A stretch of 64,000 bases of DNA from a virus. Numbering within the stretch: the stretch's first letter is position 1; each line of letters starts with the position of its first letter. The DNA is taken from the IMG/VR virus record IMGVR_UViG_3300045107_000106, positions 43,080 to 107,079 of that record, one strand, 5' to 3'. Positions 1-42,174 of this stretch are shown piece by piece. The translations under genes and the position numbers were made by a program. The notes beneath the pieces are model-generated. The model was not told the DNA's origin. It worked only from the letters and a program-made list of their open reading frames with translations, and searched no databases.

Positions 1-1145
1 TGCTCAAGTTGAGCAACGAGTTCCTTTACGACCTGCTGGGTGCCTCGCAGGAACACAACATCAAGCCGAAGAAGTTCCCGCAGGTCAAGATCGACCAGTT
101 CATCGTGGGCCACACCAACCACGCCGAACTCGAACGCCTGCAAGGCAACCGCTTCATGGAAGCCCTCCGTGACCGGACGGTGAAGATCGACGTGCCGTAC
201 CTGCTCCGCTGGACGGACGAGATCAAGGTGCTGGAGAGCGACTACGGTCCAGGCAAGGTGAAGCAGCACATCATGCCGCACACCCTGGAGATCGCAGCCC
301 TCTTCGCAATCCTCACCCGTCTGAAGGACGACAAGGACGTGAAGCTCGACCTTCGGGACAAGGCCAAGCTGTACGACGGCCGGGCACTGCCGGGCTGGAC
401 GGAAGACTCGGTAAAGGAACTGAGGGACAAGTACCCGACGGAAGGTCTGGATCAGGGCGTGTCCGCACGTTACATCCAAGACAAGATTTCGAACTGCTTG
501 GCTCGTAGCGTCAAGGGTTACGTCAACGTCTTCCACGTTCTGAACGAACTGAAGGCAGGGTTCTACAACTCGTCCATGATTGATGTCGAACACATCAAGA
601 AGTACGAGGAAGCCCTGGACTTGGCGATCAAGGAGCTTCAGGAAATCCTGAAGGCCGAGGTTCAGAAGGCGTTGGTGGCCGACGAGAACATCATCGAACG
701 GGTCTGTGCCAAGTACATTGACAACGTGGTGGCGTATGTCAACAAGGAAAAGATCATCAACCCGATCACCAAGCAGCCCCAGGAGCCTGATGAGCGGCTG
801 ATGCGGAGCATCGAAGAGAAGATCGACATCCCCGAGCAAGGTGCCAACGACTTCCGCCGGAGCTTGGCGTCGTTCATCGGGACGCTGACGATCAAGAAGA
901 AGGAGTTCCGGTGGGACAGCAACCCGGAACTGCGGCGTGCCCTTGAGGCGAAGGTGTTCGAGGACACCAGGGACTCCATCAAGCTGTCGGCCCTCACGGG
1001 CGAGGCAGCGGCAGCCGACCCGGACAGCCGGGAAAAGCTGGAGGCCATCAAGGTCCGACTCATCAACCAGTACGGGTACAACGAACAGTCCGCCACGGAC
1101 GTTCTGGAATACGTCGCCAGCCTGTTCACGGGCGGCACCGACTGA
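1..1145 (+). CDS. prkA: PrkA family serine protein kinase, C-terminal part (5' truncated by window)
   Basis: The reading frame is open from the first bases, so the true start lies upstream; about 380 residues are visible. The segment carries the end of the PrkA AAA+ domain (IVGHTNHAELERL, then VPYLLRWTDEIKVLE) and the alpha-helical C-terminal PrkA domain (RLKDDKDVKL, KLYDGRALPGW, GVSARYIQDKISN, NDFRRSLASFIG). These follow the order of E. coli YeaG/PrkA. In bacteria PrkA works with YeaH and SpoVR in starvation, stress or sporulation responses. Here it is followed by a small gene, yeaH and spoVR, the same trio. Whether kinase activity is kept cannot be judged, because the Walker A region lies outside the window. 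The family call is firm; its role in a phage is inference. Confidence 0.9.
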   Translation, partial: LKLSNEFLYDLLGASQEHNIKPKKFPQVKIDQFIVGHTNHAELERLQGNRFMEALRDRTVKIDVPYLLRWTDEIKVLESDYGPGKVKQHIMPHTLEIAALFAILTRLKDDKDVKLDLRDKAKLYDGRALPGWTEDSVKELRDKYPTEGLDQGVSARYIQDKISNCLARSVKGYVNVFHVLNELKAGFYNSSMIDVEHIKKYEEALDLAIKELQEILKAEVQKALVADENIIERVCAKYIDNVVAYVNKEKIINPITKQPQEPDERLMRSIEEKIDIPEQGANDFRRSLASFIGTLTIKKKEFRWDSNPELRRALEAKVFEDTRDSIKLSALTGEAAAADPDSREKLEAIKVRLINQYGYNEQSATDVLEYVASLFTGGTD

Positions 1146-1162
1146 TAAGCAGTAGCCCTGAG

Positions 1163-1193
1163 AAAGCCCGGCCAAGTGCCGGGCTTTTTCTTT
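1163..1193 (+). terminator. Rho-independent terminator after prkA
   Basis: A 7-bp GC stem (GCCCGGC/GCCGGGC) with a CAAGT loop, extended by AAA/TTT pairs and followed by a T-run, lies 17 bases after the prkA stop. Confidence 0.85.
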
Positions 1194-1201
1194 AATAGGA
1201 C

Positions 1202-1230
1202 TTCCAAATGTAAGCCGGATTGTGTAATAT
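1202..1230 (+). promoter_or_regulatory. Possible sigma70-type promoter for the small gene-yeaH-spoVR unit
   Basis: TTCCAA and TAATAT are separated by 17 bases directly after the prkA terminator. A start point about 7 bases downstream would fall at the ATG at 1238. The -35 match is weak, so this is tentative. Confidence 0.3.
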
Positions 1231-1237
1231 GTTGGGC

Positions 1238-1678
1238 ATGGGTGTTAGTCCATTCAAGCGGTCTTCCTCCGGCCCCCGACGAGCGTACTACCCGTCCGGC
1301 CCCTGGATCGACGAAAACGGCAAGCCGTGCAAGTCGCCGACTTACGCTGCTTCCGATTACGACAAGAAGAAGCGGAAGAAGACGGAGCCGCCGAACCCCG
1401 ACCCGCACAACTACAAGTTCGTGCGTGTCGAGGAAGCAGATGGATTTCTCTTAGTCCAACTCAATTATCCTGACTGCACCAACTATGAGGGGAACAAGAT
1501 TCTTCTCTTCAGGGGTGTGAAGCTGATCGATCTGGTCAACCAGAAATACATCGACCCACACTTCTTCCAAGCGAAGGATATCGCCTCCCCCATTGCCCGC
1601 TTCGTCCCCACGGAAGAGGGTTGGAAAATGGGCCTTACTTTAATCACAGCGTTGAAAGCGAGTACGAATGCCTCGTAG
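1238..1678 (+). CDS. Hypothetical protein between prkA and yeaH
   Basis: A 146-residue protein with a basic, proline-rich N-terminal third (PFKRSSSGPRR, KKKRKKTEPPNPDP) and a compact C-terminal half (about residues 55-140) with alternating hydrophobic residues. I do not recognise a family. Its end overlaps the start of yeaH by 11 bases, which implies coupled translation and a place in the PrkA/YeaH/SpoVR unit. Start choice is uncertain: ATG 1229 is also in frame but overlaps a putative -10 box, and neither start has a clear ribosome binding site. It lies where host operons normally have nothing, so it could be a phage-specific partner. Confidence 0.6.
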   Translation: MGVSPFKRSSSGPRRAYYPSGPWIDENGKPCKSPTYAASDYDKKKRKKTEPPNPDPHNYKFVRVEEADGFLLVQLNYPDCTNYEGNKILLFRGVKLIDLVNQKYIDPHFFQAKDIASPIARFVPTEEGWKMGLTLITALKASTNAS

Positions 1679-2864
1679 AATTCAAGAAGACCACAAAGAC
1701 TTCCGGGACGTTGTAGGCGGACGTGTCCGTAGGGAACTGAAGAAGTTCCTGAAAGGGAAGGTCGTCCGCCTACGACCGAAGAACGGGAAGCTCCAGTTCA
1801 CCATCCCGCAGATCGACCAGCCGCACTTCCTCCACGGGGACAACGGCGAGGGCGTCGGCCGGGGCAAGGGTAAGAAGGGTCAGGTCATCGGCCAAGACCC
1901 GCAAGAGGGCGATCCGCAGGCTGGCGAAGAACACGCCGACGGGATCACCATCCAGGTCGATCTCGAAGAAGTGTTGAAGGTCATGCAGGAAGAACTCGGC
2001 CTGCCGGACCTGAAGCCGAAGCCGTCGGAAGTGTACGAGGAAGTCAAGACGGTTTACAACGACATCTCGAAGGTCGGCCCGGAATCGCTACGCCACACCC
2101 GCCGCACGATGTACGAGGCGATGAAGCGGATGGCGATGATGGGCACGCTGGGCGAGAAGAAGATGCTCCCCGGCCACTCCGTCCCGATGCGGGTCATCAC
2201 CCTGGCCGACGGGGACCGCCGCTACCGTCAGTACAAAGAGATCAAGATTCCGTCGTCGAACGCCGTGGTGTTCTTCATCCGGGACTACTCCGGGTCGATG
2301 GACGACTTCCGCTGCGACATCGTTTCCGACATGTCCTGGTGGATCGACGTGTGGATTCGCAAGTTCTACGAGCGGGTAGAGCGGGTCTACATGATCCACG
2401 ACACGGAGGCCGAAGAGGTAGACGAGAAGAAGTTCTACGAAGTCCGGTTCGGCGGCGGCACCAAGATTTCGTGTGCCTTCGACGAGGCGGCGAAGATGCT
2501 GGAGAACCGCTTCCCGGCCCACAACTACAACATCTACGTCATCTACTTCTCTGACGGCGACAATTGGGAAGAAGACAACGCCAAAGTGTCCGACCTGTTG
2601 GGTAAGAAGTTCCCGCCGGAAGTGGTGAACATGGTCGGGTTCGTGCAGATTTGCACCTACAACTACTCACGCAGTATCAAGAAGTTCGTTGACGAACAGA
2701 TCAAGACCGGGGCCATCGGCAAGAACGTCCGCACGGTTACGATTGGTGAAGAGTCCTCCGACAGCAGCAGCATGTTCGGCGGCGGCACGCTCATGACGCC
2801 CGAGGAGCGGGACGAGCAAATCCTGAAGGGAATCAAGACTCTGTTCGGTAAGGAGAAGAACTAA
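1668..2864 (+). CDS. yeaH: YeaH/YhbH family protein (DUF444, VWA-like)
   Basis: A 398-residue DUF444 protein. The N-terminus (about 1-60) is the typical basic stretch (MPRRIQEDHKDFRDVVGGRV). A glycine-rich linker at about 65-85 (GVGRGKGKKGQVIG) precedes the VWA-like domain with the MIDAS-type motif RDYSGSMDDF at about 205. Later come YFSDGDNWEED and GGGTKIS. YeaH/YhbH proteins are encoded with PrkA and SpoVR in many bacteria and act in the same stress or sporulation pathway. The ATG overlaps the preceding gene by 11 bases, and the stop overlaps the spoVR ATG (TAATG). Length and order match bacterial homologues, with no sign of decay. Confidence 0.93.
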   Translation: MPRRIQEDHKDFRDVVGGRVRRELKKFLKGKVVRLRPKNGKLQFTIPQIDQPHFLHGDNGEGVGRGKGKKGQVIGQDPQEGDPQAGEEHADGITIQVDLEEVLKVMQEELGLPDLKPKPSEVYEEVKTVYNDISKVGPESLRHTRRTMYEAMKRMAMMGTLGEKKMLPGHSVPMRVITLADGDRRYRQYKEIKIPSSNAVVFFIRDYSGSMDDFRCDIVSDMSWWIDVWIRKFYERVERVYMIHDTEAEEVDEKKFYEVRFGGGTKISCAFDEAAKMLENRFPAHNYNIYVIYFSDGDNWEEDNAKVSDLLGKKFPPEVVNMVGFVQICTYNYSRSIKKFVDEQIKTGAIGKNVRTVTIGEESSDSSSMFGGGTLMTPEERDEQILKGIKTLFGKEKN

Positions 2865-4465
2865 TGGCTATCAGCAAAATGTTGAACGGTTCGCCTATCC
2901 TGATGGGCAACAACAACGTGCCGGGCGTTCGCATTCACAAAGAAGTCATGGATGTCATGGACACCATCTTCAGTGAATGCCGTAAGTTCGGCCTGGACTT
3001 CTACCCAACCATCGTCGAGTTCTTGACCTACGACGAAATCTCCGAGATCGCCTCATACGGCGGCTTCCCGATCCGCTACCCGCACTGGAGCTTCGGGATG
3101 GAGTACGAGGAACTGTCCCGTGGGTACGAGTACGGCATGCACCGGATCAGCGAGATGGTTGTGAACAACAACCCTTGCTACATCTACTGCCTGGACTCGA
3201 ACACGCTGGTGGACAACATCGACGTGATCGCCCACGCCCTCGGCCACAACCACTTCTTCAAGAACAACGTGTTCTTCAAGGGGACGCACACCGGCATGAT
3301 GGGCAAGTTCGCCGACCATGCCCGCCGCATCCGTAAGTACATGGCCCGGTGGGGCAAGGAGCGGGTGACGGAGTTCATCGACCACTGCCTGCGGCTGAAC
3401 ACGCTCATCGACCCGATGGACAACCTGTATCAGAAGCAGATCAACGACGTGATCGTCAGCGACCACCGGGAATACCGGACGCCGAACCGCCGTCACGCCT
3501 CGTCGAACTACATGGACGACTGGATCAACCCGGTCGAGTACATCAAGAAGGAGAACGAGAAGATCGAAAAGGCGGACGCCGCCGACTACCTGGACATCTT
3601 CGACAAGCCGAACCGTAACATCTTCGGCTATCTGCGTGACCACGCCCCGCTCAAACCGTGGCAGCAGGACATCATCAGCATGCTGTACGAGGAGGCAATG
3701 TACTTCTCGCCGCAGCGGTTGACGAAGATGTTGAACGAAGGGTTCGCCTCGTACACCGACTACTACCTGATGTGCGTCCACGGGCTGTGCGGCCTCGGCC
3801 AGAAGCGGCACGACATGGGCATCATCCAGTACGCCAAGCACAAGATGTTGGTTTTGGGCGGCAAGTACAGCCAGAACCCTTACAAGCTGGGCTTCGAGCT
3901 ACTGACCGACATCGAGGAGCGGTGGAACAAGGGCCGCTTCGGTCGGGAGTACGAGGAGTGCAAGAGCATGAAGGAGCGGGCCGAGTGGGACAAGAAGCTC
4001 GGGCTGGGCAAGGAGAAGGTGTTCGAAGTCTGCCAGTTCTACAACGACGCCCTGGCGATTGCGGAATTCTTCACGCCGGACTTCTGCGAGAAGATGGAAT
4101 ACTTCGAGTACAAGAAGTTTAATAACGGCCAGACGAAGATTCAGAGCCGGGACTACCATAGTATTAAGTCGCAACTCGTCCGGCGTTACATGAATGGCGG
4201 GTTGCCAGATATTCGTCTGACCGACCCGAACCACCTGGGCAAAGGCTGGTTCCTCATGCAGCACTACGGTTGCGGGCTGCCGCTGTACGATCCTTACGCA
4301 AAGGAAACGATCACATCGGTGTTCCGCATCTGGGGTAGCCCCGTGGTTCTGGCTACGAAGAACCCGGACGGTGAGGAATTCGTCTACCTCTGCGATGGGA
4401 CGAACTCCGAGAAGGATGTTCACGTCATGAGACGGGCGGACTACGAGAAGGAGTTTGTCAAATGA
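2864..4465 (+). CDS. spoVR: SpoVR family protein
   Basis: A 533-residue protein covering the full SpoVR/YcgB length. Diagnostic stretches include YPTIVEFLTYDEI, YGGFPIRYPHWSFG, NNPCYIYCLDSNT and DVIAHALGHNHFFKNN near the N-terminus. The C-terminal region carries GWFLMQHYGCGLPLYD. SpoVR proteins take part in Bacillus spore cortex formation; the E. coli homologue YcgB belongs to the PrkA/YeaH stationary-phase module. The start codon overlaps the yeaH stop by one base, and the stop overlaps the next ATG in ATGA, so the unit continues downstream. Family assignment is very secure; why a phage keeps it is unknown. Confidence 0.95.
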   Translation: MAISKMLNGSPILMGNNNVPGVRIHKEVMDVMDTIFSECRKFGLDFYPTIVEFLTYDEISEIASYGGFPIRYPHWSFGMEYEELSRGYEYGMHRISEMVVNNNPCYIYCLDSNTLVDNIDVIAHALGHNHFFKNNVFFKGTHTGMMGKFADHARRIRKYMARWGKERVTEFIDHCLRLNTLIDPMDNLYQKQINDVIVSDHREYRTPNRRHASSNYMDDWINPVEYIKKENEKIEKADAADYLDIFDKPNRNIFGYLRDHAPLKPWQQDIISMLYEEAMYFSPQRLTKMLNEGFASYTDYYLMCVHGLCGLGQKRHDMGIIQYAKHKMLVLGGKYSQNPYKLGFELLTDIEERWNKGRFGREYEECKSMKERAEWDKKLGLGKEKVFEVCQFYNDALAIAEFFTPDFCEKMEYFEYKKFNNGQTKIQSRDYHSIKSQLVRRYMNGGLPDIRLTDPNHLGKGWFLMQHYGCGLPLYDPYAKETITSVFRIWGSPVVLATKNPDGEEFVYLCDGTNSEKDVHVMRRADYEKEFVK

Positions 4466-4980
4466 GTGAAGTCGTCGTCCCTTCACCAACGGTAAAGACC
4501 CCTCTACCCGAGGGGTCCGTTGCCCATGAGGGATTGGAAGTCATCGAAGGTTTCCTCAATACACTGGTTACGCAGTGGGAAACCGAGTACCAGAGCAAGA
4601 GCAAGTGGCTCTGGTTTTTCAAAGCCAAAGTCGGGCTGGCTAAGTGCGCCCGGTTCGTCGCCGGGGCCACGGACGGATTCATCGTTCTGGCCGAAAGGGT
4701 GGGCGAAGCGGGGAGCGGACGGGCAAAGAAGACGCTTGTTACGAATGCCCTGGACCGCCTTTACACGAAGGTCGTGCAGCCCAATCTACCTTTGTGGCTG
4801 AAACCCGTGGGCTGGCTGATCCGGCTCGTGGTGATCCGGTTGATCCTCAGTACACTGATCGACTTCTGCGTCAGCAAGTACAACCAGGGCGATTGGAACG
4901 CCGAAAAGAAGGAAGCGGAAGTCCAGGCTTTGATCGCCCAGAACTTGATCTCACAAGGACTCAAGAAGCAGCAGTTTTAA
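4462..4980 (+). CDS. Putative membrane-associated protein, last gene of the spoVR unit
   Basis: A 172-residue protein starting inside the spoVR stop (ATGA overlap). It has a hydrophobic, tryptophan-containing segment at about 112-135 (PVGWLIRLVVIRLILSTLID), an aromatic/basic patch at about 45-60 (SKSKWLWFFKAKVGLAKC) and a charged C-terminus. This looks like a protein that sits on or crosses the membrane once. No family is recognised. A holin is conceivable from the hydrophobic helix, but nothing else supports lysis. Its coupling to spoVR suggests a role with that module. It converges with, and overlaps by four bases, the minus-strand gene ending at 4977. Confidence 0.65.
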   Translation: MSEVVVPSPTVKTPLPEGSVAHEGLEVIEGFLNTLVTQWETEYQSKSKWLWFFKAKVGLAKCARFVAGATDGFIVLAERVGEAGSGRAKKTLVTNALDRLYTKVVQPNLPLWLKPVGWLIRLVVIRLILSTLIDFCVSKYNQGDWNAEKKEAEVQALIAQNLISQGLKKQQF

Positions 4981-5318
4981 GCAACGCCGAGGGTGCCCGG
5001 TCCTGCGGGCATCTGATTCTGAAGCTCCGGTTCGCCCTGCGGGGTGGGCCGGGGCTTGTTTTTCCACCCGTCCCAAATCTCGAACATTCGGTCACAAACT
5101 TTCTTCAGTTCACCCTTCTCGCCCTTCATGGCGTGGCGGATACGCTCCATGTGCCCGTCGATGGCCTGCACCCGGTCGAAATGCTCTTTGGGCTTGGTTT
5201 TTATCTCGTGCGAGTTAATTTGGGGCTGAAGGCCGGTGCGGATGACTTCCGCAGAAGCGGGCATCGCCGACGCTTTCGCCTCTAACTCTTCGTTCTCTAG
5301 CCACTGTCGGAATCGCAT
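4977..5318 (-). CDS. Small protein with capsid-targeting-like N-terminus (CTS protein A)
   Basis: A 113-residue protein on the opposite strand to its neighbours. The N-terminus, MRFRQWLENEELEAK, resembles the T4 internal-protein signal MKTYQEFIAEA that directs proteins into the prohead and is then cut off. The rest is helical and charged, with a proline-rich tail (PRPTPQGEPELQNQ). A T4-late-like nonamer (GTAGATACC) ends three bases before the ATG and there is no ribosome binding site, so the message may be leaderless. Function is unknown; packaging in the capsid is inferred from the N-terminal pattern shared with the proteins starting at 43581, 47855, 50500 and 54891. Confidence 0.7.
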   Translation of the reverse strand: MRFRQWLENEELEAKASAMPASAEVIRTGLQPQINSHEIKTKPKEHFDRVQAIDGHMERIRHAMKGEKGELKKVCDRMFEIWDGWKNKPRPTPQGEPELQNQMPAGPGTLGVA

Positions 5319-8085: not shown

Positions 8086-8114
8086 AGAAATTCGGCTAGG
8101 AAGCCGATACAATG

Positions 8115-8148
8115 GGCACGGGCGAAGATGCCCGTGCCTGTTTTGTTT
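8115..8148 (+). terminator. Rho-independent terminator after the SPFH gene
   Basis: A 9-bp stem (GGCACGGGC/GCCCGTGCC), loop GAAGAT, followed by TGTTTTGTTT. Confidence 0.85.
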
Positions 8149-8168
8149 CCAAACCAGGGAAGGTTAAC

Positions 8169-9539
8169 ATGTCGAATATGAAGCACCCCATCATGGGGTA
8201 CGAGAACCTGCACCGCCACTCCGAGTACAGTCTGCTGGACGGGTTCGCAAAGGTCGGCGAGTACGCCGCCTACTCCAAAGAGGCAAACCAGCGTTACCTC
8301 TGCATCACCGACCACGGCGTCATGGGGGCCGTTCCGCAGCAGGTCGGCGAGTCCGAAAAGCACGGCCTGAAGCCCATCTTCGGCATCGAGTTCTACATCA
8401 ACCCGATGCAGCCCAAGTCCGAGTACCGTGAGCAGAACGCCGAATTCCGTAAGGGGTTGGGCACCGAGGAAGAACAGAAGCGGTTCGACAAGAGTCACCA
8501 CCTGCTCGGCATCGCCCGCACCAACCAGGGCTACACCAACCTCGTGCGGCTGAGTACCTGGGCCTGGGTTCACGGCTACTACCGTCGGCCCCGCATCAAC
8601 CACGACATCCTGAATCAGTACAAAGAAGGGATCATCTTCACGAGTACCTGTGCCAACAGTGAAATCGCCAACGCCTTCTTCGACCACGGCGAGGAAGCGG
8701 GGATGGCGAAGGTGCAGCAGTACATCGACTTCTTCGGGAAAGAGAACTTCTTCCTCGAACTGATGATGCTCGACTTCAAGATGCAGAAGCCCTACGACGC
8801 CTTCCTGCTACGGGCGATGGATCGGTTCGGCCTGCAAGTCCTGCTCTCCACCGACTGCCACTACTGCAAGAAGGAACACGCCCTGAACCAGCGGATGATG
8901 CTCATGGTTCAGACGGGCCGGACCATGCAGGAGATCGAAGCCCTCGTCGCTTCGGGTGCGGCCGACGACCTGTTCGAGCTTCAGGACACGAACCTGTGGA
9001 TGAAGACCGAAGATGAGATGAACCAGATGTGGGAGGAGAAGTACCAGGACACCATCGACTACGAAATCTTCAAGTGTGCGAAGGCGAACACGGTGAAGGT
9101 GTGCGAGATGTGTGCCGGGGTGCAGATCGACCGGGGCATCAAGCTGCCGATTGAGGAAGACGAAAAGAAGCAGTTGATGAAGTTGATCCGGGAGGGCGTG
9201 GACCGGCGGAAGGTGCCGATGACCCGCCAGTACCTTGACCGAATCAAGGAAGAGTACCAACTGATCTGTGACAAGGGGTTCGCCTCGTACTTCCTGATTC
9301 AGAAGAAGATGGTGGATGAGGCGTTGCGGGTGTGCCCGGAGATTTACGGGTTTCAGGACTCGTCGATGGCCCGAGGGCCGGGGCGGGGGTCAGTAGGCGG
9401 CTCGCTGGTCGCCTACTGTCTGGACATTCACGATCTCGATCCGATCAAGCACGGGCTGCTGTTCTCTCGGTTCCTCAGCCCGGCTCGTGGTGGTAAGCAG
9501 ATGAAAACTCGCTTCTCGCTTAGCCCCTGCGGCGGTTAA
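8169..9539 (+). CDS. dnaE: DNA polymerase III alpha subunit, N-terminal half (PHP domain and start of palm)
   Basis: A 456-residue protein holding the first part of a C-family polymerase. The PHP domain has intact metal-ligand motifs: HRH at 15-17, TDHG at 47-50, GIEFY at about 72-76, and STDCHY near 225. The palm motif GPGRGS at 403-408 continues into SLVAYCLDIHDLDPI and GLLFSRFLSPARGG. The protein then stops after a short unrelated tail (KQMKTRFSLSPCGG), just before the place where the catalytic PDxDxD motif would follow. That motif is in the separate gene at 21703. ATG 8169 is chosen because AGGGAAGG stands in front of it; an ATG at 8112 precedes the terminator. No intein-like sequence is seen at the end. 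The 3' end overlaps a convergent gene by 20 bases. Confidence 0.92.
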   Translation: MSNMKHPIMGYENLHRHSEYSLLDGFAKVGEYAAYSKEANQRYLCITDHGVMGAVPQQVGESEKHGLKPIFGIEFYINPMQPKSEYREQNAEFRKGLGTEEEQKRFDKSHHLLGIARTNQGYTNLVRLSTWAWVHGYYRRPRINHDILNQYKEGIIFTSTCANSEIANAFFDHGEEAGMAKVQQYIDFFGKENFFLELMMLDFKMQKPYDAFLLRAMDRFGLQVLLSTDCHYCKKEHALNQRMMLMVQTGRTMQEIEALVASGAADDLFELQDTNLWMKTEDEMNQMWEEKYQDTIDYEIFKCAKANTVKVCEMCAGVQIDRGIKLPIEEDEKKQLMKLIREGVDRRKVPMTRQYLDRIKEEYQLICDKGFASYFLIQKKMVDEALRVCPEIYGFQDSSMARGPGRGSVGGSLVAYCLDIHDLDPIKHGLLFSRFLSPARGGKQMKTRFSLSPCGG

Positions 9540-10362
9540 GTGCCCGCATCAGGTGTTCCATAGCAGGCGGCATGGGCTTCTTCGGAAGTGCCATGCCGCT
9601 GTCGTCCATAGCGTTCGGATCGACGGCAGCCGGATCACCGTCCAGGGTCATCTCGTCGCCCATCCCGTCTTCATCTCCCGGCAGCGGTTCTTCGTCGCCG
9701 TCGTGCTGCATCTGGCCCAGGAAGTCCATGTCGTCGTCGCCGAGGGTGGCGTCTTCGTCACCCATCTCGCCGTCGTCGCCCATGTCCTCTTCGGCGTCCG
9801 GGTCGTCCATCCCGTCCATTCCCATACCGTCTTCGTCATCGAATTCGGAGAGTCCAAAGTCCTCGTAAGGCGGGGCGACTTCTTCCTTCTTCAGTGCGCT
9901 GACGAGCTTGCGGCTCAGGGTCGGGCCGAAGTCCTTATTAGCCATCACTTCGGCAAGGTGCTTGAAGGTGTCGTTGTGGGTGAACATTTCCGCAACCACC
10001 ACGCCCATCGCACCACGACGCTTCAGGTCGGCGATCAGGTGTTCGGCCAGGAACGGGTTATCAGCGATGGCGGCGGCAGCGGCCTTCACTGCTTGAATGC
10101 CCTCAGCGGTCGGAATCTTGACGTTCTTGCAGGTCTTCTCCGGGTCGTACTTGAGAGCCGAATCGCCCTCGTCGCCGAAGCCCTTCGTGGCCTTTTTGAG
10201 CTTTTTGCCGCCGTCAGCGTAGTGCTTCGGGGTGTACTGTGCGTTCCCCTTCGGCGGTTGTTTGGATTTGCCGGACGGCATATCTACTTTGTCAGCGACA
10301 TCCTTAACAACAGGCTTATCAAGCTTACCGCTGCTGCTCAGGTATTCAGAAAAAATTCCCAT
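9520..10362 (-). CDS. Acidic low-complexity late protein
   Basis: A 280-residue protein. It starts MGIFSEYLSSSGK, a weak relative of the capsid-targeting-like start seen in other minus-strand genes here. A Lys/Pro/Gly-rich stretch and a helical middle (about 85-165) follow. The C-terminal third is extremely acidic with Gly-Met-Asp repeats (DDEDGMGMDGMDDPDAEEDM and onward) and ends PPAMEHLMRALNRRRG. Such acidic, low-complexity composition fits a scaffold, a head core component or a protein bound to basic partners, but none is demonstrated. It has a late-like nonamer (CTAAATAAC) upstream and is isolated among plus-strand genes. It converges with the polymerase N-half gene. Confidence 0.7.
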   Translation of the reverse strand: MGIFSEYLSSSGKLDKPVVKDVADKVDMPSGKSKQPPKGNAQYTPKHYADGGKKLKKATKGFGDEGDSALKYDPEKTCKNVKIPTAEGIQAVKAAAAAIADNPFLAEHLIADLKRRGAMGVVVAEMFTHNDTFKHLAEVMANKDFGPTLSRKLVSALKKEEVAPPYEDFGLSEFDDEDGMGMDGMDDPDAEEDMGDDGEMGDEDATLGDDDMDFLGQMQHDGDEEPLPGDEDGMGDEMTLDGDPAAVDPNAMDDSGMALPKKPMPPAMEHLMRALNRRRG

Positions 10363-13403: not shown

Positions 13404-13797
13404 GGGGCCGCTCCGGTATCGAACCGGCGTCAACGGCCGAAAGGACTTGCGTAGTGGTTGGTCGGTGGGCCACTTAAAAAAGCCGACTAAGCCTTAACTG
13501 GCGATACTCTCAGAATGGCTGCCTGAGTTGTGCCCTCGCAAGGGGGCACCGCAATAGCGGCCAAATGAGTCTTCGGACTCAGGGACTCACAGAAGCGATG
13601 CTCCAAGCGTCTGTGTTTCTCACGCCAAAAAGGAGACGAAGCCTAGTGAGTGTCGGTTGTAGCTAGGCGGGTCGCTAACCGAGAATCCCGGTGGTTTTGC
13701 CAGTTGTACGGCACCGTGGATTATCAACAACTGGATACACGCATAAACGCCTTCGGAAGTTCGCTTGGTCACAGGGGTTCGACTCCCCTCGGCTCCA
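13404..13797 (+). ncRNA. ssrA: Transfer-messenger RNA (tmRNA)
   Basis: The 394-base RNA has a tRNA-like acceptor stem (GGGGCCG at 13404-13410 pairing with CGGCTCC at 13790-13796, one G-T pair). It also has a T arm with the TTCGACT loop closed by AGGGG/CCCCT at 13773-13789. The conserved AAAAAGCCG segment lies just before the tag reading frame. The tag starts at GGC 13500 and reads GDTLRMAA followed by TGA (13524-13526); an A at position -4 of the resume codon fits the known rule. CCA is not encoded (the DNA reads CTA after the discriminator A). tmRNA with SmpB rescues stalled ribosomes and adds a degradation tag. No smpB is visible in the window, so host SmpB is presumably used. Confidence 0.93.
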
Positions 13798-13802
13798 CTA
13801 AG

Positions 13803-14430: not shown

Positions 14431-15522
14431 ATGCCAGCGAAGAAGACGTACTCAGAAGTCGTTAAGTTCTTCCAAAAACAAGGCCATACACTCCTCACTG
14501 AAACCTACCTCGGTTGTAATCAAACTCTCACTTTCAAGTGTCGTTGCGGCGGCACCGGCACCACTACGTTCGCTATGATGCGTGCTATCGTCAACCGGGG
14601 GAATACGTCTGGTTGTAAAGAATGCCGTGGTGATCGCATCGGCGTCTCCAGCCGATTTACTATTGAGCATGCCAAACAAGTCTATGCCGATGCAGGCTGC
14701 AAGCTACTAGAAGATCAATACGTCAACCACATCACCCCTATGCGGTACATCTGCTTCTGCGGACGTGAGGGGCGGACGAGCTACAACTATTTCACCCAGC
14801 ACGGGCGGCATTGTAAACAATGCGGTTTTGAAAAACGCACTGAGAAAATCAAGTTCTCCCAAGAGGAGGTTGAAGCTATCTTCGAAGCAGAGAACTGTCT
14901 CCTCCTCGGCACATACACCGGCTATCACGATTACATTGATTACATCGCTCAATGTAATCACAAAAGTAACGTCACCCTACAGTATTTCCGAGTCGGGGGC
15001 GGTCGGCAGTGCTGGAAGTGCAGTTGGGAAAACAGGGGGTGGCGTGGCCCAGACTGGACTTTCGAGCAGGTCCGTGATTACGTCGCCTCCCACGGCTGCG
15101 TGCTGCTCTCCACCAGCTACAGCGGCGTGAAAGACCAGATTGAGTACCGCTGCATCTGTGGGTTTCAAACCGAAATCCGATTCAGCAACTTCAAAGAAGG
15201 ACACCGTTGCAAAGAATGTTCCAACCGGCTCGGTGGAGATCGCAGGCGGCACTCCTTCGAATTCGTCAAACTCTTCTTCCAAGAAGCGGGGTGCCGACTC
15301 CTCGCCGATGAGTACGTCGGAAAGGACACGGTGATGCCCTACATCTGCGTTTGCGGTCGAAAATCCAAAATCTGCTTCGCCAGCTTCGCCCGAGGGAGTC
15401 GCTGTAAAGACTGTGGGTTCGTGAAGATCAGTGAATCACAACAACTCGCTCGGCGGCTCTGGGAGGAGGCAGAACTAGGCGATCTGGACAAAATTCTCTC
15501 AGACCGCTTGCGTTGTGATTGA
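14431..15522 (+). CDS. Tandem zinc-cluster repeat protein, five repeats
   Basis: A 363-residue protein built of five repeats of about 60-65 residues. Each has the form F..V..F...GC.LL...Y......M.YIC.CGR......F..G..C..C, giving four cysteines (CxC...CxxC) per unit; one C is replaced by H in repeat 3 (AQCNHKSN). The C-terminal tail (ARRLWEEAELGDLDKILSDR) is shared with the next gene. The repeats look like treble-clef or zinc-ribbon modules that bind nucleic acid; no nuclease motif is seen. Strong site AGGAGG in front. It is probably the paralogue of the gene at 15573 and a passenger of the same mobile island as the HNH gene. Confidence 0.75.
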   Translation: MPAKKTYSEVVKFFQKQGHTLLTETYLGCNQTLTFKCRCGGTGTTTFAMMRAIVNRGNTSGCKECRGDRIGVSSRFTIEHAKQVYADAGCKLLEDQYVNHITPMRYICFCGREGRTSYNYFTQHGRHCKQCGFEKRTEKIKFSQEEVEAIFEAENCLLLGTYTGYHDYIDYIAQCNHKSNVTLQYFRVGGGRQCWKCSWENRGWRGPDWTFEQVRDYVASHGCVLLSTSYSGVKDQIEYRCICGFQTEIRFSNFKEGHRCKECSNRLGGDRRRHSFEFVKLFFQEAGCRLLADEYVGKDTVMPYICVCGRKSKICFASFARGSRCKDCGFVKISESQQLARRLWEEAELGDLDKILSDRLRCD

Positions 15523-15572
15523 GTTGTGTTTAAGATGTGTTTGTGTTGAGGAGACGAGGCAAGGAGGCCGGA

Positions 15573-16484
15573 ATGAGGAGGCTGACATTCGAGTTCGTGC
15601 GGGATGAATTCCGCAAGGCGGGTTGCACACTCCTAGCGACCAGCTACTCCCGCAACAGCGAAAAGCTTCCTTATATCTGCAAGTGTGGTCGTCGGTCGCA
15701 GATCACTTGGAATAAATTCAAAGAAGGGCAACGGTGTTATGATTGCCGCAATCGCAAGATCGGCGATTGCAAACGGACCGACTACGAAGATGTGGTCGCA
15801 TATTATTACGACCAGCAATGTACCCTGCTTGCGGATAAGTATCACGATTGTGATACCCCGATGCCGTTCATTTGTGTCTGCGGCAGAGAAGGTATAACCA
15901 CCTTCTATAACTTCAAACATCTTGGGGTTCGATGTCTCGCTTGTGCCCACGAGAAGACGGGGGACGCATATAGGTATACCCTTGAGCAAGTTAAGGAATT
16001 CTTTCTCGATCAAGGGTGTGTACTTCTTGCAGATAAGTATGTAAATGCCTTCACAGTGATGCCTTACCTGTGTCATTGTGGAAGGTATGCCGAGATCATT
16101 TGGAATTCCTTCCAACGGGGGAACAGGTGTAAGGCGTGTGGTATCGAAAAAATTGCGAATGACCGGAAGTTCAGCTACGAATATGTCAAGATGTACTTTG
16201 AGGGGCGGGGGTGTACCCTCCTATCTTCCGAGTATGTCAACTCTCAGACGCCACTGGAGTACCGTTGTGCCTGTGGCGAAATTGCTAAAGTAACCTTCAA
16301 CCGCTTTACCTCTCAGGGATCGCTGTGTTGGAGTTGCCGTGATCGTAGAGCATGGCAGGTACGTCGAGAGAACGAGAAGCTGTGGAATGAGTCCAACTTG
16401 GACGCAGACCTTGACCGATTACTCACAGAGAGGTGCCGTGGAGAGCAGGCATCCCTCTTAAACAACGCTCTCAAGGAGAAGTAA
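15573..16484 (+). CDS. Tandem zinc-cluster repeat protein, four repeats
   Basis: A 303-residue paralogue of the preceding gene with four repeats (for example FVRDEFRKAGCTLLATSY, PYICKCGRRSQITWNKF, GQRCYDC). It ends in the same kind of tail (EKLWNESNLDADLDRLLTER). The start is ATG 15573 behind AAGGAGG. Its DNA is visibly more AT-rich and less codon-biased than surrounding phage genes, which suggests recent acquisition or low expression. DNA or RNA binding is inferred from the repeated four-cysteine modules. Confidence 0.73.
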   Translation: MRRLTFEFVRDEFRKAGCTLLATSYSRNSEKLPYICKCGRRSQITWNKFKEGQRCYDCRNRKIGDCKRTDYEDVVAYYYDQQCTLLADKYHDCDTPMPFICVCGREGITTFYNFKHLGVRCLACAHEKTGDAYRYTLEQVKEFFLDQGCVLLADKYVNAFTVMPYLCHCGRYAEIIWNSFQRGNRCKACGIEKIANDRKFSYEYVKMYFEGRGCTLLSSEYVNSQTPLEYRCACGEIAKVTFNRFTSQGSLCWSCRDRRAWQVRRENEKLWNESNLDADLDRLLTERCRGEQASLLNNALKEK

Positions 16485-21702: not shown

Positions 21703-24363
21703 ATGAAGGAACGTGACGAACTGGTAGCCCTGCTGGAAGCGGCTTTGGACGCAAAGGGCTTACGGAACGATCAGTACACAAATCGACTGGCTCTCGAACT
21801 GAAAGAACTCGACGTTCTTGAAGAACACGAATACTTTCTCAAGCTGCACAAAGAGGGGAAGAAGTACCCTGAGAACGAGAACAACCTTCTCGTCCCATAT
21901 CTGCTCGACCTGTGCCCCGACTTCGACATCAACCGGGAACCCGCCTACAACCAGGGCGAGTTCCCCGACATCGACATGGACTACCTGCCGCTCGTCCGTG
22001 ACCACTTGAAGAACGAGTGGGCGGTGAAGGAGTACGGCCGGGATTACGTCTGCTCCATCGGCACCTACGGCACCCTGGGCATCAAGGCAGCCATGCTCGA
22101 CATGGCCCGTGTCCACGGCGTCCCGAAGGACGAAGTGCAGATGGTTACGAAACAGGTCGAAGACAAGGACGACGAAGGCGAGCCGATGGAGTGGGACAAG
22201 GCTCTCGAACTCTACGCCGACTTCAAGGCGTTCTGCGAGCGGCACCCGGACGTGGCCGCAGCCGCCAAGATGATGCTGGACCGGAACAAATCGGGCGGCG
22301 TCCACGCCGGGGGACTCATCATCTCCTCCAAGCCGATCCAAGACTTCGTGCCGCTCGAAGTGCGGTCAGTGAAGAAGGAGAACAAGCACGGCGTCCTCGT
22401 CTCGGCGTGGTGCGAGGGGCAGGCCACCCAGGACTTGCAGCCGGTCGGGCTGGTGAAGTTCGACTTGCTGGTGGTGGACGGGTTGATGCAGATCGCCCAG
22501 GCGTGCGAACTCATCCGCCAGCGGCACGGCATCGAGCGGATCAACGCCCTGCCGGGCGGGCGGAACTGGAGCGACACGGCCTACCTCAACGACCCGAAGG
22601 CGTTGGCGATGGCGAACAAGGCCGACCTGAAGTGCGTGTTCCAGTTCGGGTCGGACGGCATCCGGGCGATGGTCAAGCGGGGCGGCGTGACGAGCTTCGA
22701 CGACCTGATGGCGTACTCGGCCCTCTACCGCCCCGGCCCGCTGAACATGGGGATGGATAAGCACTACTGCGACCGGAAGAAGGGGATCGAGCAGTGGAGC
22801 ATCCACCCGCTGCTCATGCCGATCCTGGGGCGGACTTACGGGGTTCTTGTTTACCAAGAGCAGTGTATGCAAGTCCTCCACACGGTAGGACTCATCCCGC
22901 TCATTCACTGCGAGAAGGTCCGCAAGGCCATCTCGAAGAAGAAGATCGCCCTGTTCGCCAAGTACAAGGACATGTTCATTACGAACGGTCAGAAGGTACT
23001 CGGCGAGAGCGAGGAGTTCGTCCGTGACCTGTGGGACCAGATCGAGGCGTTCGCCGACTACGGCTTCAACGCCAGCCACAGTTGTGCGTACACCTACATC
23101 TCCTCCCGGCAGTTGTGGCTCAAGGCCCACTACCCGCTGGAGTATTACACTGCGGTCCTGATGTGCGAAGACCAGTCGGACAAGATTAAGGAGATCAAGC
23201 AGGACGCCCGGAAGCACGGCATCGAAGTCAAGCCGGTGCATATCAACCACAGCCGGGAACTGTTCCGCATCGTGGACAACGACATCTACTACGGGTTCAG
23301 TAACCTGAAGAAAGTCGGCGAGGCGGTGGCGAAGCGGATCGTGGCGGGGCAACCCTACGCCTCGTTCGAGGACTTCCTGCAACGGTTCGGGACCGACATG
23401 CAGGTGTTGAAGCCGCTCATCTCCCTCGGCGTGTTCGAGGAGAAGGTGGACCGGATCACGCTGTACAAGTTCTACGACAAGTACAGCGATTGGCTCAAGA
23501 AGTGTAAGAGCCGGGACAAGCGGTTCGAGGAGAGCCAAGCCAAGTACGAAACCGAACTCCGGGAACTGCTGAAGCAGTACGGGGCGGACGAGAAGGAAGT
23601 CGAGGCGATGGCCCGGTTCGACGATGATGTCATCAGTGAATGGGAAGCCCGGTTCGGCAACATCAAGGTCGAACAGCAGTACAAGTACAAGGGCGAGATG
23701 CGGACCCGTGAAGTGTCCGTGGTCAAGTTCATGACCGACATCCACGGGCGGCGGAACAAGGGCGTGCGAGGCCAGGAGGAGAAGACCCGGCTCGACCAAG
23801 AGGAACCGCCGACCCTGGCGACCTTCAACGCTAAGACGTGGCCGCTGGAGCAGGCGATCATCGAACTGCTCTCCGACGAGAAGGCAGCCGAACAGGAATA
23901 CTACGGCTTCCAGTGGGTACACGACCTGGAAGAAAGCCCCGACTACGAAGGGTTCACCATCGACCGCTTCACCGAGGTTGTGGCGAACCGGAAGGAGCCG
24001 AGGGGTGCCATCGAGGTTAAGGTACTCCAGGTGACGAAGCGGGAGTTCAAGACCGGCACCATCGCCTACGACGTGAAGGTGGAAGACGCCAACGGCAAGG
24101 TGGTGATCGTCCGGTTCTGGAGCGACGACTACACCCGGTTCCAAGAGGAGATCACGCCCGGTGCGCTCCTACGGCTGCACGTCAAGCCGCCGGAAGGGTT
24201 CCCGAGCTATTCCTTCTGGGCACCGCCGAAGCACCTGCGGCACCGGCTTGTCCCGAAGGATAAGAGCCTGGACGACCGGCTGTACGTCCTGACGCCGGGG
24301 GCGAAGAAGGTTGTCGTGCAAGAGGAGAAACCGGAAGAGGGATTCGAACTGATGGAAGCCTGA
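21703..24363 (+). CDS. dnaE: DNA polymerase III alpha subunit, C-terminal catalytic half
   Basis: An 886-residue protein that continues the polymerase interrupted at 9539. The first about 85 residues (MKERDELVALLEAALDAKGL and onward) have no clear counterpart in E. coli DnaE. Catalytic PDIDMD is at 88-93, and the third acidic residue lies in GLVKFDLLVVDGL at about 250. Fingers motifs include SALYRPGPLNMGM, YQEQCMQVL, KVRKAISKK, FADYGFNASHSCAYTYIS and RQLWLKAHYPLEYY. The C-terminus holds a helix-hairpin-helix-like region (FSNLKKVGEAVAKRI) and an OB-fold domain (about 770-850). It has a ribosome binding site (TAGGAGA), so it is translated independently. No intein C-fragment is seen. Both halves together would make a complete enzyme. 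Confidence 0.95.
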   Translation: MKERDELVALLEAALDAKGLRNDQYTNRLALELKELDVLEEHEYFLKLHKEGKKYPENENNLLVPYLLDLCPDFDINREPAYNQGEFPDIDMDYLPLVRDHLKNEWAVKEYGRDYVCSIGTYGTLGIKAAMLDMARVHGVPKDEVQMVTKQVEDKDDEGEPMEWDKALELYADFKAFCERHPDVAAAAKMMLDRNKSGGVHAGGLIISSKPIQDFVPLEVRSVKKENKHGVLVSAWCEGQATQDLQPVGLVKFDLLVVDGLMQIAQACELIRQRHGIERINALPGGRNWSDTAYLNDPKALAMANKADLKCVFQFGSDGIRAMVKRGGVTSFDDLMAYSALYRPGPLNMGMDKHYCDRKKGIEQWSIHPLLMPILGRTYGVLVYQEQCMQVLHTVGLIPLIHCEKVRKAISKKKIALFAKYKDMFITNGQKVLGESEEFVRDLWDQIEAFADYGFNASHSCAYTYISSRQLWLKAHYPLEYYTAVLMCEDQSDKIKEIKQDARKHGIEVKPVHINHSRELFRIVDNDIYYGFSNLKKVGEAVAKRIVAGQPYASFEDFLQRFGTDMQVLKPLISLGVFEEKVDRITLYKFYDKYSDWLKKCKSRDKRFEESQAKYETELRELLKQYGADEKEVEAMARFDDDVISEWEARFGNIKVEQQYKYKGEMRTREVSVVKFMTDIHGRRNKGVRGQEEKTRLDQEEPPTLATFNAKTWPLEQAIIELLSDEKAAEQEYYGFQWVHDLEESPDYEGFTIDRFTEVVANRKEPRGAIEVKVLQVTKREFKTGTIAYDVKVEDANGKVVIVRFWSDDYTRFQEEITPGALLRLHVKPPEGFPSYSFWAPPKHLRHRLVPKDKSLDDRLYVLTPGAKKVVVQEEKPEEGFELMEA

Positions 24364-40998: not shown

Positions 40999-42174
40999 GT
41001 GGCTGTGGATAAGGAACAAATCATTAGGCAGCAGGGAACTGCGCTCGTGCGGGTGCTGGAAGAGAAATCCGCTCTCCCGGCACCCCCGGCGTGTTCACTA
41101 TTGACACGTCTCAAGTCTTACACAACCGAAGAACTCCGAAACTGCTTCGGAATCTACGGCCTGAATTTCGCCGCCTTCGCCAACAACATCGACCTGGAAC
41201 ACCCCGACCTGAACGCCCTGTTCGGCGGGCAACTAACTGAGGACCGGCCGGGTTACTTCGGCCGGGACGCCTCGGACCTGCTCAAGCTGGCCTCCTACGG
41301 CACGAACTTCAACCTGTCGCAATACGTCCTCTACAACCTCAAGCGGGTCATCACCCAGCACGAGATGTGGAACGAGATCAGTAAGAAGCTCGACAACCCG
41401 AGTCGAAACCAACTCTACGTCCGGTTCGTGAAGAGTTGGTCGGAGCGACACAACATCCGCAAGTCCAAGAGGACGCAGCCGGTCGAACTCCGGGTGCTGT
41501 TCAAGAAGGGCAGCCGGATGTGGGACTCCCAGCCGGACGACTTCTCTCCGTTCATCCGGGACGAGATCAGATACAGCGTCCAACTCCAGAAGGCGATGGA
41601 TCGGTTCAACCACTTCCAGAAACTCGGCCTCAGTTGCATGGCCGAGGAAGTGAAGAAGTCGGTGGACTTCATCGAGGCAAAGTCACGGTGCGATCTGTAC
41701 CTGGGATACAACAAGATCACGCTCACCCAGGCGGCAATCGTCCTGGCACGCATGATCGGCTGTGAGTTCCACGAGGACTTGGCGTCTACCGTCTGCATTA
41801 ACACGGACAAGTTGTACGATTTCTCCACCGTGTCCCTGAGCCGGGGCTACTTCAAGTACACGCCCCAGGCGTACTGCCTGCACGACATGCCAGAGCCGCC
41901 CGAAGCGGTGCGACGTATTATGGAACACGTCGAGGCCATGCCCGAGTTGGGAAAACGCCCGGCATTCGACCATTATCGGGTGGTTGTCCCGAGTTTTAAC
42001 TACCCGGACATCTACCTAACTTACAGGACGTTGAACGGCGAAACGGTGATTGCCGATACCTACGCCGACATGAGGAAGGGACTCGACCTTGAGCTACTGA
42101 AGGCCGGTATCACCACTGGCGTGTTACTCGGCGAACGAGACGGCGGTTGTTACTTCTTGGGGTATTGGGCGTGA
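40999..42174 (+). CDS. Hypothetical protein downstream of IF3
   Basis: A 391-residue protein with GTG start (a second GTG follows two codons later). It is mainly helical with conserved-looking cysteines and aromatic residues (ELRNCFGIYGLNFAAFANNI, YNKITLTQAAIVLARMIGCE, MPELGKRPAFDHYRVVVPSF). No family is recognised. It starts one base after the IF3 stop and its TGA overlaps the next GTG, so it shares the IF3 message. Confidence 0.65.
   Translation: MAVDKEQIIRQQGTALVRVLEEKSALPAPPACSLLTRLKSYTTEELRNCFGIYGLNFAAFANNIDLEHPDLNALFGGQLTEDRPGYFGRDASDLLKLASYGTNFNLSQYVLYNLKRVITQHEMWNEISKKLDNPSRNQLYVRFVKSWSERHNIRKSKRTQPVELRVLFKKGSRMWDSQPDDFSPFIRDEIRYSVQLQKAMDRFNHFQKLGLSCMAEEVKKSVDFIEAKSRCDLYLGYNKITLTQAAIVLARMIGCEFHEDLASTVCINTDKLYDFSTVSLSRGYFKYTPQAYCLHDMPEPPEAVRRIMEHVEAMPELGKRPAFDHYRVVVPSFNYPDIYLTYRTLNGETVIADTYADMRKGLDLELLKAGITTGVLLGERDGGCYFLGYWA

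Follow-up and report, generated by a model that had tools for sequence, protein, structure and literature searches.

The stretch of viral DNA analysed here (the window; 64,000 nucleotides, bases 43080-107079 of the 107,079-base IMG/VR record IMGVR_UViG_3300045107_000106) opens with three genes of the PrkA, YeaH/DUF444 and SpoVR families. Family profile matches place these genes on one strand in the order known from bacteria, in agreement with the order, strand and coordinates that had been proposed from the letters alone (the sequence-only reading; Table 1). The window begins inside prkA, whose start lies at record position 42164, 916 bases upstream of window base 1; the full open reading frame encodes 686 amino acids (L004:6165-8225, L004 being the window's own locus). 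The whole PrkA protein covers positions 1-357 of the 358 in the AAA_PrkA profile and also has the PrkA C-terminal domain, so that both domains are present over its full length. Its Walker A motif, GPVGSAKS at residues 112-119, lies just upstream of the window, where the sequence-only reading had advised looking for it. SpoVR matched its profile over positions 5-405 of 407, with a score below the cut-off of the NCBIfam equivalog PRK11767 (175 of 679 bits), and YeaH likewise did not reach NCBIfam equivalog cut-offs.

Table 1. Features of the module and its surroundings, in window coordinates.
Feature	Position	Strand	Evidence
prkA, 3' part (380 of 686 codons)	1..1145	+	PF06798 1.6e-67, PF08298 8.4e-24
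Terminator-like hairpin directly after prkA, 13 pairs, 5-nucleotide loop, then T-rich stretch	1160..1190	+	Fold and clade-A comparison
gA, inserted phage gene, phrog_13501	1238..1678	+	PHROG match 1.1e-25
yeaH/yhbH (DUF444), VWA domain; MIDAS D206, S208, S210 (2283-2297), T265, D296	1668..2864	+	PF04285 3.1e-65
spoVR; invariant E97 (3152-3154), H124xxxH128 (3233-3247), E292 (3737-3739)	2864..4465	+	PF04293 3.5e-104
gB, orphan small gene with hydrophobic stretch	4462..4980	+	Open reading frame; no family
Terminator-like hairpin after gB, 16 pairs, 10 G-C	5022..5057	+	Hairpin scan (L004 12102-12137, shift 7080)
Split DnaE, N-terminal half, conserved downstream neighbour of the module	8112..9539	+	PHP, DNA_pol3_alpha matches; linkage across loci
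Split DnaE, C-terminal half	21703..24363	+	Finger domain, rest of DNA_pol3_alpha, HHH_6

The reading frames overlap by 11 nucleotides at gA/yeaH (1668-1678), by 1 nucleotide at yeaH/spoVR and by 4 nucleotides at spoVR/gB. The overlapping starts and stops described in the sequence-only reading hold at these three junctions but not after prkA, the 3' end of which is free of overlap and is separated from gA by a 92-nucleotide gap containing a hairpin. Sequence motifs are retained throughout the module. Across 30 phage and bacterial sequences, PrkA is invariant at the Walker A residues G112, P113, K118 and S119, and also at E302 and E305, which lie in an NRGxxEFxEM stretch that we read as Walker-B-like. 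The YeaH MIDAS motif (DxSxS/T/D) is invariant in 24 phage and bacterial sequences, and SpoVR has 17 invariant columns in 33 such sequences, including E97, H124, H128 and E292. Nei-Gojobori ratios of non-synonymous to synonymous substitution range from 0.023 to 0.125 for 14 chosen pairs, with saturated and identical pairs set aside; purifying selection on the module copies is strong.

The module is widespread in IMG/VR. A search with SpoVR gave 120 stretches, of which 80 were kept, and PrkA, YeaH and SpoVR occur in that order on one strand in 77 of these 80 loci; the remaining three (L024, L046, L069) run off contig ends. The 80 loci represent 56 distinct SpoVR proteins, comprising 14 in clade A (50-64% identical to that of the window) and 42 in clade B (25-30%). 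A single-sequence scan of IMG/VR with PrkA gave 4 loci. Among 50,697 named phage records, the window's part of PrkA matches 16, namely 11 Thermus phage records, 4 uncultured huge phages and Enterobacter phage LAU1; YeaH matches 17, one of them partially (28% of the query, Bacillus phage CM1), while SpoVR matches 4 with the window's protein as query and 9 with a clade-B query. The survey of other huge phages called for in the sequence-only reading recovers PrkA matches in 4 uncultured huge phages and the module on dozens of IMG/VR contigs. SpoVR relatives in genome contigs, among the matches listed, come almost only from Alphaproteobacteria, at about 28% identity.

In order to assess carriage independently of the module, IMG/VR was scanned with an alignment (A5) of the N-terminal part of the neighbouring DnaE; a single-sequence dnaE scan returned nothing, and the alignment was used instead. 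This gave 106 stretches with relatives, of which the best 80 were kept and 79 examined (L230-L308; L015 was omitted as already counted). All three module genes lie upstream of dnaE in 56 of the 79 loci, and all 56 have the order PrkA-YeaH-SpoVR-DnaE on one strand. Of the rest, 5 have a partial module at the flank edge, 11 have too little flank and 7 have no module gene in the flank; when the whole records of these 7 were searched, PrkA and SpoVR were found elsewhere in 2 (L245, L262) and no module gene was found in 5, which are fragments of 24-104 kb and include the near-copies L270 and L271. At the non-redundant, whole-record level, at least one module gene is present in 48 of 52 loci and none was found in 4. 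The dnaE query was drawn from module-bearing contigs, so this result speaks for that clade only; within this giant-phage clade the module looks like near-core equipment belonging to the virus itself, and not like a chance piece of host DNA.

The viral origin of the module is borne out by the genes that accompany it. Phage-type genes of the record include those for a DnaB-like helicase, a UvsX-like recombinase, thymidylate synthase and ribonucleotide reductase, as well as SbcCD-like genes. The T4-type capsid protein gp23 (PF07068) was found on 10 of the 22 module contigs searched, most of which are fragments, and in none of 14 control genomes; the positive contigs are G006 (343 kb) and G007 in clade A and G015, G016, G018, G019, G020, G022, G023 and G024 in clade B. 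No gp23 was found on the window's own record, a 107-kb fragment, and its viral nature therefore rests on IMG/VR, its phage-type genes and its relatives. The family phrog_2, which we take to be terminase, gave matches in 16 of 24 records or genomes; as 11 of the 14 controls matched too, only the ten matches below 1e-40 were counted, and two of these ten, on G006 and G022, were confirmed by Pfam as T4-type terminase.

These data bear directly on the refuting condition named in the sequence-only reading, a contig that is bacterial or a chimera, and on the rival explanation that the module is a fragment of host DNA or a product of assembly. The collections hold one likely case of this kind, Enterobacter phage LAU1 (MN688132.1, 1-3308), where YeaG and YeaH sit at the very end of the record and PrkA groups with bacterial proteins; these genes were accordingly treated as probable host DNA and look like host flanking sequence annotated as phage. 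The clade-A copies, by contrast, form a branch of their own. Dozens of independent contigs show the same block next to the same phage dnaE, which rules out chance or chimera, and gp23 lies on the same contigs; gp23 co-occurrence and the dnaE-anchored survey together refute a host fragment or chimera for clade A. For the module as a whole, we give this explanation almost no credence.

Phylogenies were used to ask whether the phage copies cluster with one host group. A quick maximum-likelihood tree of PrkA (52 of 201 rows after thinning) joins clade A in one branch (SH-aLRT 99), beside PDB chain 9xip (100) and on the Thermomicrobium/Bacillus side, and gives the Thermus phages a branch to themselves (100). 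Clade-B rows are interspersed with proteobacterial PrkA, apart from L030 on the other side, and need 4 or more label changes. In the SpoVR tree (44 rows), clade A and the Thermus phages are again each recovered as a branch (100 for both), and clade B needs at least 2 label changes. Clade A is therefore a branch of its own and the phage copies overall fall into at least three lineages, in trees with flagged long branches and thin bacterial sampling; the simplest reading would be three or more separate acquisitions by phages.

The hairpin after prkA was spotted by eye and tested afterwards. A 51-nucleotide fold including positions 1160-1190 has an energy of -24.4 kcal/mol (z -3.96), and none of 200 shuffles was as good. 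Under a rule requiring a hairpin below -14 kcal/mol within 70 bases of the gene end, with 5 or more T among the 8 bases that come after it, terminator-like sites follow 22 of 50 non-redundant clade-A prkA genes. The same rule picked out 1 of 200 dinucleotide shuffles and 3 of 55 spoVR ends, but none of the 52 yeaH ends. In a general hairpin scan terminator-like sites were not above chance overall (12 against 10.0), and the 1160-1190 hairpin is absent from its list, probably as the stem runs into the T tract. The median gap between prkA and yeaH is 479 bases for clade A (longest 2465; 20 loci) and 11 bases for clade B (57 loci), with start codons chosen mechanically. With these putative terminators recurring, clade-A phages probably often have prkA uncoupled from the yeaH-spoVR pair.

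Several clade-A SpoVR proteins reach 932-1373 amino acids through inserts of 400-440 amino acids, which occupy two constant sites: one follows N100, next to the invariant E97, and the other follows A295, immediately behind the invariant E292-G293. As read from their printed ends, the inserts start with Cys and finish with His-Asn before Thr or Ser. In L284, the only SpoVR for which the family match was run, they score 2.9e-35 against LAGLIDADG_3 and 69.1 bits against Intein_splicing, for which the cut-off is 35.8. One or two SpoVR inteins occur in L284:5116-9222, L029:4581-8702, L293, L244, L255 and others. The PrkA of L300 (L300:1544-4792) has a 390-amino-acid intein just before the conserved NRG stretch, the DnaE of L298 (L298:9983-11791) has an intein-like insert, and so does that of L305 (L305:10004-12628), recognised there from its length and ends alone. 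As inteins commonly settle in conserved stretches of active sites, the SpoVR intein sites independently mark the same invariant residues; intein positions and invariant residues together are pointers to candidate active-site residues in SpoVR.

Predicted structures were compared with known folds. The YeaH model (predicted local distance difference test, pLDDT, 75.7) contains a VWA domain at residues 197-394 that matches proteasome subunit entry 9cgc_W (VIA-align Z 16.2, 2.6 Å, 171 residues; Foldseek 7.3e-8). The SpoVR model, built from alignment A2 (25 rows), has a pLDDT of 83.0 and a predicted template modelling score of 0.79. VIA-align, run on Foldseek's candidates, gave as its best match the putative lipoprotein 3o0y (Z 10.0, 3.6 Å, 189 residues), followed by cold aminopeptidase (Z 8.3, 3.9 Å, 183), leukotriene A4 hydrolase (Z 8.3, 4.2 Å, 180), M32-type carboxypeptidases (Z 7.4, 7.3), collagenase T (7.0) and angiotensin-converting enzyme (6.5-6.9), although Z values of 7-10 can be background. 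Over SpoVR residues of about 6-425, ranks 2-10, that is 9 of the best 10, are metallopeptidases by our own classing (M1, M32, collagenase and angiotensin-converting enzyme entries; Z 6.5-8.3), three of them angiotensin-converting enzyme. Because the match list is uniform and the sequence has an H-x3-H plus Glu pattern, our best guess from the model is that SpoVR has a gluzincin-like metal site. Sequence searches of the PDB gave no match for SpoVR, chance-like matches only for YeaH and one strong match for PrkA (9xip/9xiq/9xir).

The two small genes that the sequence-only reading had counted with the module have a different standing. Seven further relatives of gA were found, all on other viral contigs, and none of the 6-kb loci examined around these relatives contains a module gene; gA was rejected as a module part on these grounds. 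Its start at 1238 is backed by the relatives, which mostly begin MG[VI]. For gB, no match was found in Pfam, PHROG or NCBIfam and no relative in the IMG/VR scan. The coordinates of both genes and the start of gA thus stand, and their membership of the module is unsupported. With these genes set aside, the interpretation of a complete, functional-looking module carried by a virus is upheld by the families, residues, selection and gp23.

The two DnaE halves lie about 12 kb apart, with the break just before the catalytic PDxDxD stretch. Most clade-A loci, as seen over L009-L029, share this breakpoint, L005 and L022 have an intact DnaE, and nothing at the break could be recognised as the remnant of an intein. 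Beside dnaE, a minus-strand open reading frame (9520-10362) with an acidic low-complexity tail and no Pfam family is kept in 15 loci of the clade-A set. Upstream of the module, L004:3428-4795 encodes an HldE-like protein (PfkB kinase and cytidylyltransferase-like domain) of a family present in 13 clade-A loci, hinting at a Gram-negative host. In clade B, two further proteins are encoded upstream of prkA (L031, L039, L048, L076 and others), a PAAR-motif protein in 16 loci at a distance of 3.3-4.3 kb and a DUF7217 protein in 21 loci, one member of each having been scanned; an elongation factor G (EF-G) gene follows spoVR by 59-997 bases in 9 loci (L035, L041, L047, L049, L063, L072-L075), its identity taken from a scan of L049:9661-11757. 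Farther downstream, the window encodes a transfer-messenger RNA (13404-13798; tag GDTLRMAA), followed by two related open reading frames (14431-15522 and 15537-16484), the first of which matches HNH endonuclease families.

By family, model and analogy, the trio most likely constitutes an AAA+/VWA/metalloprotein remodelling machine. PrkA would form an ATP-driven AAA+ ring, an assembly expected from its bacterial relatives, with YeaH as its VWA/MIDAS partner and SpoVR as a metal-site protein of gluzincin-like fold. PrkA may pull on or twist YeaH, as in MoxR-type AAA+/VWA pairs such as NorQ-NorD, and YeaH would then remodel or metal-load SpoVR or SpoVR's client. In NorQ-NorD, an AAA+ ring remodels a VWA protein, driving metal insertion (PMC13036017). 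Bacillus anthracis PrkA has negligible kinase and protease activity and forms ATP-dependent oligomers, and the same work describes sporulation and osmotic-stress defects (PMC13001217). Escherichia coli strains lacking yeaG, yeaH or both are alike in their recovery from nitrogen starvation, and yeaG acts via repression of toxin/antitoxin pairs (mqsR/mqsA, dinJ/yafQ) and via rpoS (PMC4664914). On the strength of this bacterial literature and the NorQD parts list, host stress physiology is rated the likeliest target, ahead of the phage's own proteins, at a probability somewhat below one half, and action on host dormancy or stationary-phase physiology is plausible. An own copy of the module would let the long infection of a giant phage continue in starving or slow hosts and would keep the cell out of toxin-driven shutdown. 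We therefore favour, tentatively and at slightly less than even confidence, a phage-owned functional PrkA-YeaH-SpoVR machine of NorQD-like action that sustains long infection in such hosts.

Several points weigh against this interpretation. Any activity, interaction or phenotype of the phage copies is a prediction from their genes. B. subtilis PrkA was earlier reported as a weak ATP-dependent protease (cited in PMC13001217), which would open proteolysis as an alternative. The AAA+ family that PrkA matches is its own, and no MoxR-type Pfam model is listed for the window part of PrkA or for its full-length relative L300, so that the NorQD analogy is one of parts. Foldseek gave no match for the SpoVR model at E <= 0.001, its VIA-align scores can be background, and SpoVR has HAxGH in place of HExxH, the catalytic Glu being Ala in the window; it is therefore filed as gluzincin-like and not as a gluzincin peptidase. 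Tight linkage is not compulsory, as prkA-yeaH (274638-277013) and spoVR (519971-521401) lie about 243 kb apart in the huge phage LR756502.1. The neighbours also differ by lineage (dnaE; portal/terminase; PAAR or EF-G), and context names no single target.

The module might instead serve the phage's own proteins, through AAA+/VWA remodelling for virion assembly, the replisome or translation. The split dnaE is a stable neighbour in clade A, a portal, a minor head protein and TerL flank the module in Thermus phage Lalka8, a terminase lies close by in phiYS40, and clade B has its PAAR and EF-G neighbours; near-core conservation would also suit an intrinsic role. However, the variation of these neighbours between lineages, the distance of the module from gp23 and terminase in G015, G016 and G022, and the action of bacterial homologues in starvation and sporulation all count against it, and we rate this role second to action on host stress, at well under even odds. 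A counter-dormancy or counter-defence device, in which phage PrkA-YeaH would silence host toxins or clear activated ones and so avert aborted infection, draws on the repression of mqsR/mqsA and dinJ/yafQ by E. coli yeaG (PMC4664914) and on repeated capture under strong selection. Since selection as measured is purifying, the module is steadily present instead of patchily distributed and the yeaG effect lacks an established mechanism, such a device appears improbable. Similarly doubtful is a joint reading in which giant phages domesticated the trio as a core takeover kit: PrkA and YeaH would metal-load SpoVR, a non-canonical (HAxGH) gluzincin-like enzyme processing a host or phage target needed to replicate in dormant cells, the recurring prkA terminator would ensure an excess of the AAA+ motor, and the SpoVR and PrkA inteins, placed at active sites, would spread among co-infecting giant phages.

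The job of PrkA-YeaH-SpoVR is unsettled despite its spread in bacteria, and the near-core phage copies, together with cultivable Thermus phages, offer a compact genetic system. If the module does let phages grow in starving cells, this would bear on viral reproduction in the slow-growing hosts of waters and soils.

Comparison with known systems places these findings in context. The bacterial operon (Thermomicrobium roseum, Legionella adelaidensis, Alphaproteobacteria) has the same families, order, strand and invariant residues; in clade A, by contrast, a terminator-like hairpin and small inserted genes often come after prkA, inteins occur in some SpoVR proteins and in one PrkA, and the module adjoins a phage dnaE. 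MoxR pairs such as NorQ-NorD likewise set an AAA+ ATPase gene beside those for a partner with a VWA/MIDAS domain and for a protein with a likely metal site, but PrkA matches an AAA+ family of its own and SpoVR is something other than nitric oxide reductase, so that the likeness is an analogy only. The Thermus phages phiYS40, phiLo, MN1 and Lalka8 have all three families on a phage, as here, but in the order VWA-SpoVR-PrkA, with a PrkA about 27-32% identical to the window's and on a separate branch; in Lalka8 the module lies near portal/terminase, unlike the dnaE of the window. Public records of phiYS40, MN1 and phiLo already annotate SpoVR and a serine kinase, and the phiYS40 genome reportedly dates from 2006. 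The uncultured huge phage LR756511.1 (595 kb) shares the clade, order and dnaE linkage of the window (identities of 63% for PrkA, 57% for SpoVR and 49% for YeaH) and differs in its unannotated record and intact DnaE (1179 amino acids). In the Ralstonia jumbo phage RsoM2USA, which lies outside our trees, ORF28 and ORF30 are annotated as SpoVR and PrkA with best homologues from Vibrio and Alcanivorax (PMC8504454), suggesting a module of the other, proteobacterial type. A marine low-oxygen survey lists spoVR as the most abundant sporulation-type viral gene (PMC8940887), the main text of Al-Shayeb 2020 (PMC7162821) has no occurrence of sporulation, SpoVR or PrkA, and we found no analysis of the three genes as one phage module in the open literature searched, the wider literature being beyond its scope. 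Carriage by phages as such is not new, given the annotated Thermus and Ralstonia phages; new here are the near-core status and clade-wide conservation beside dnaE in giant phages, the apparent repeated acquisition, the recurrent terminator-like hairpins after prkA, the inteins at conserved SpoVR and PrkA positions and the predicted gluzincin-like fold of SpoVR.

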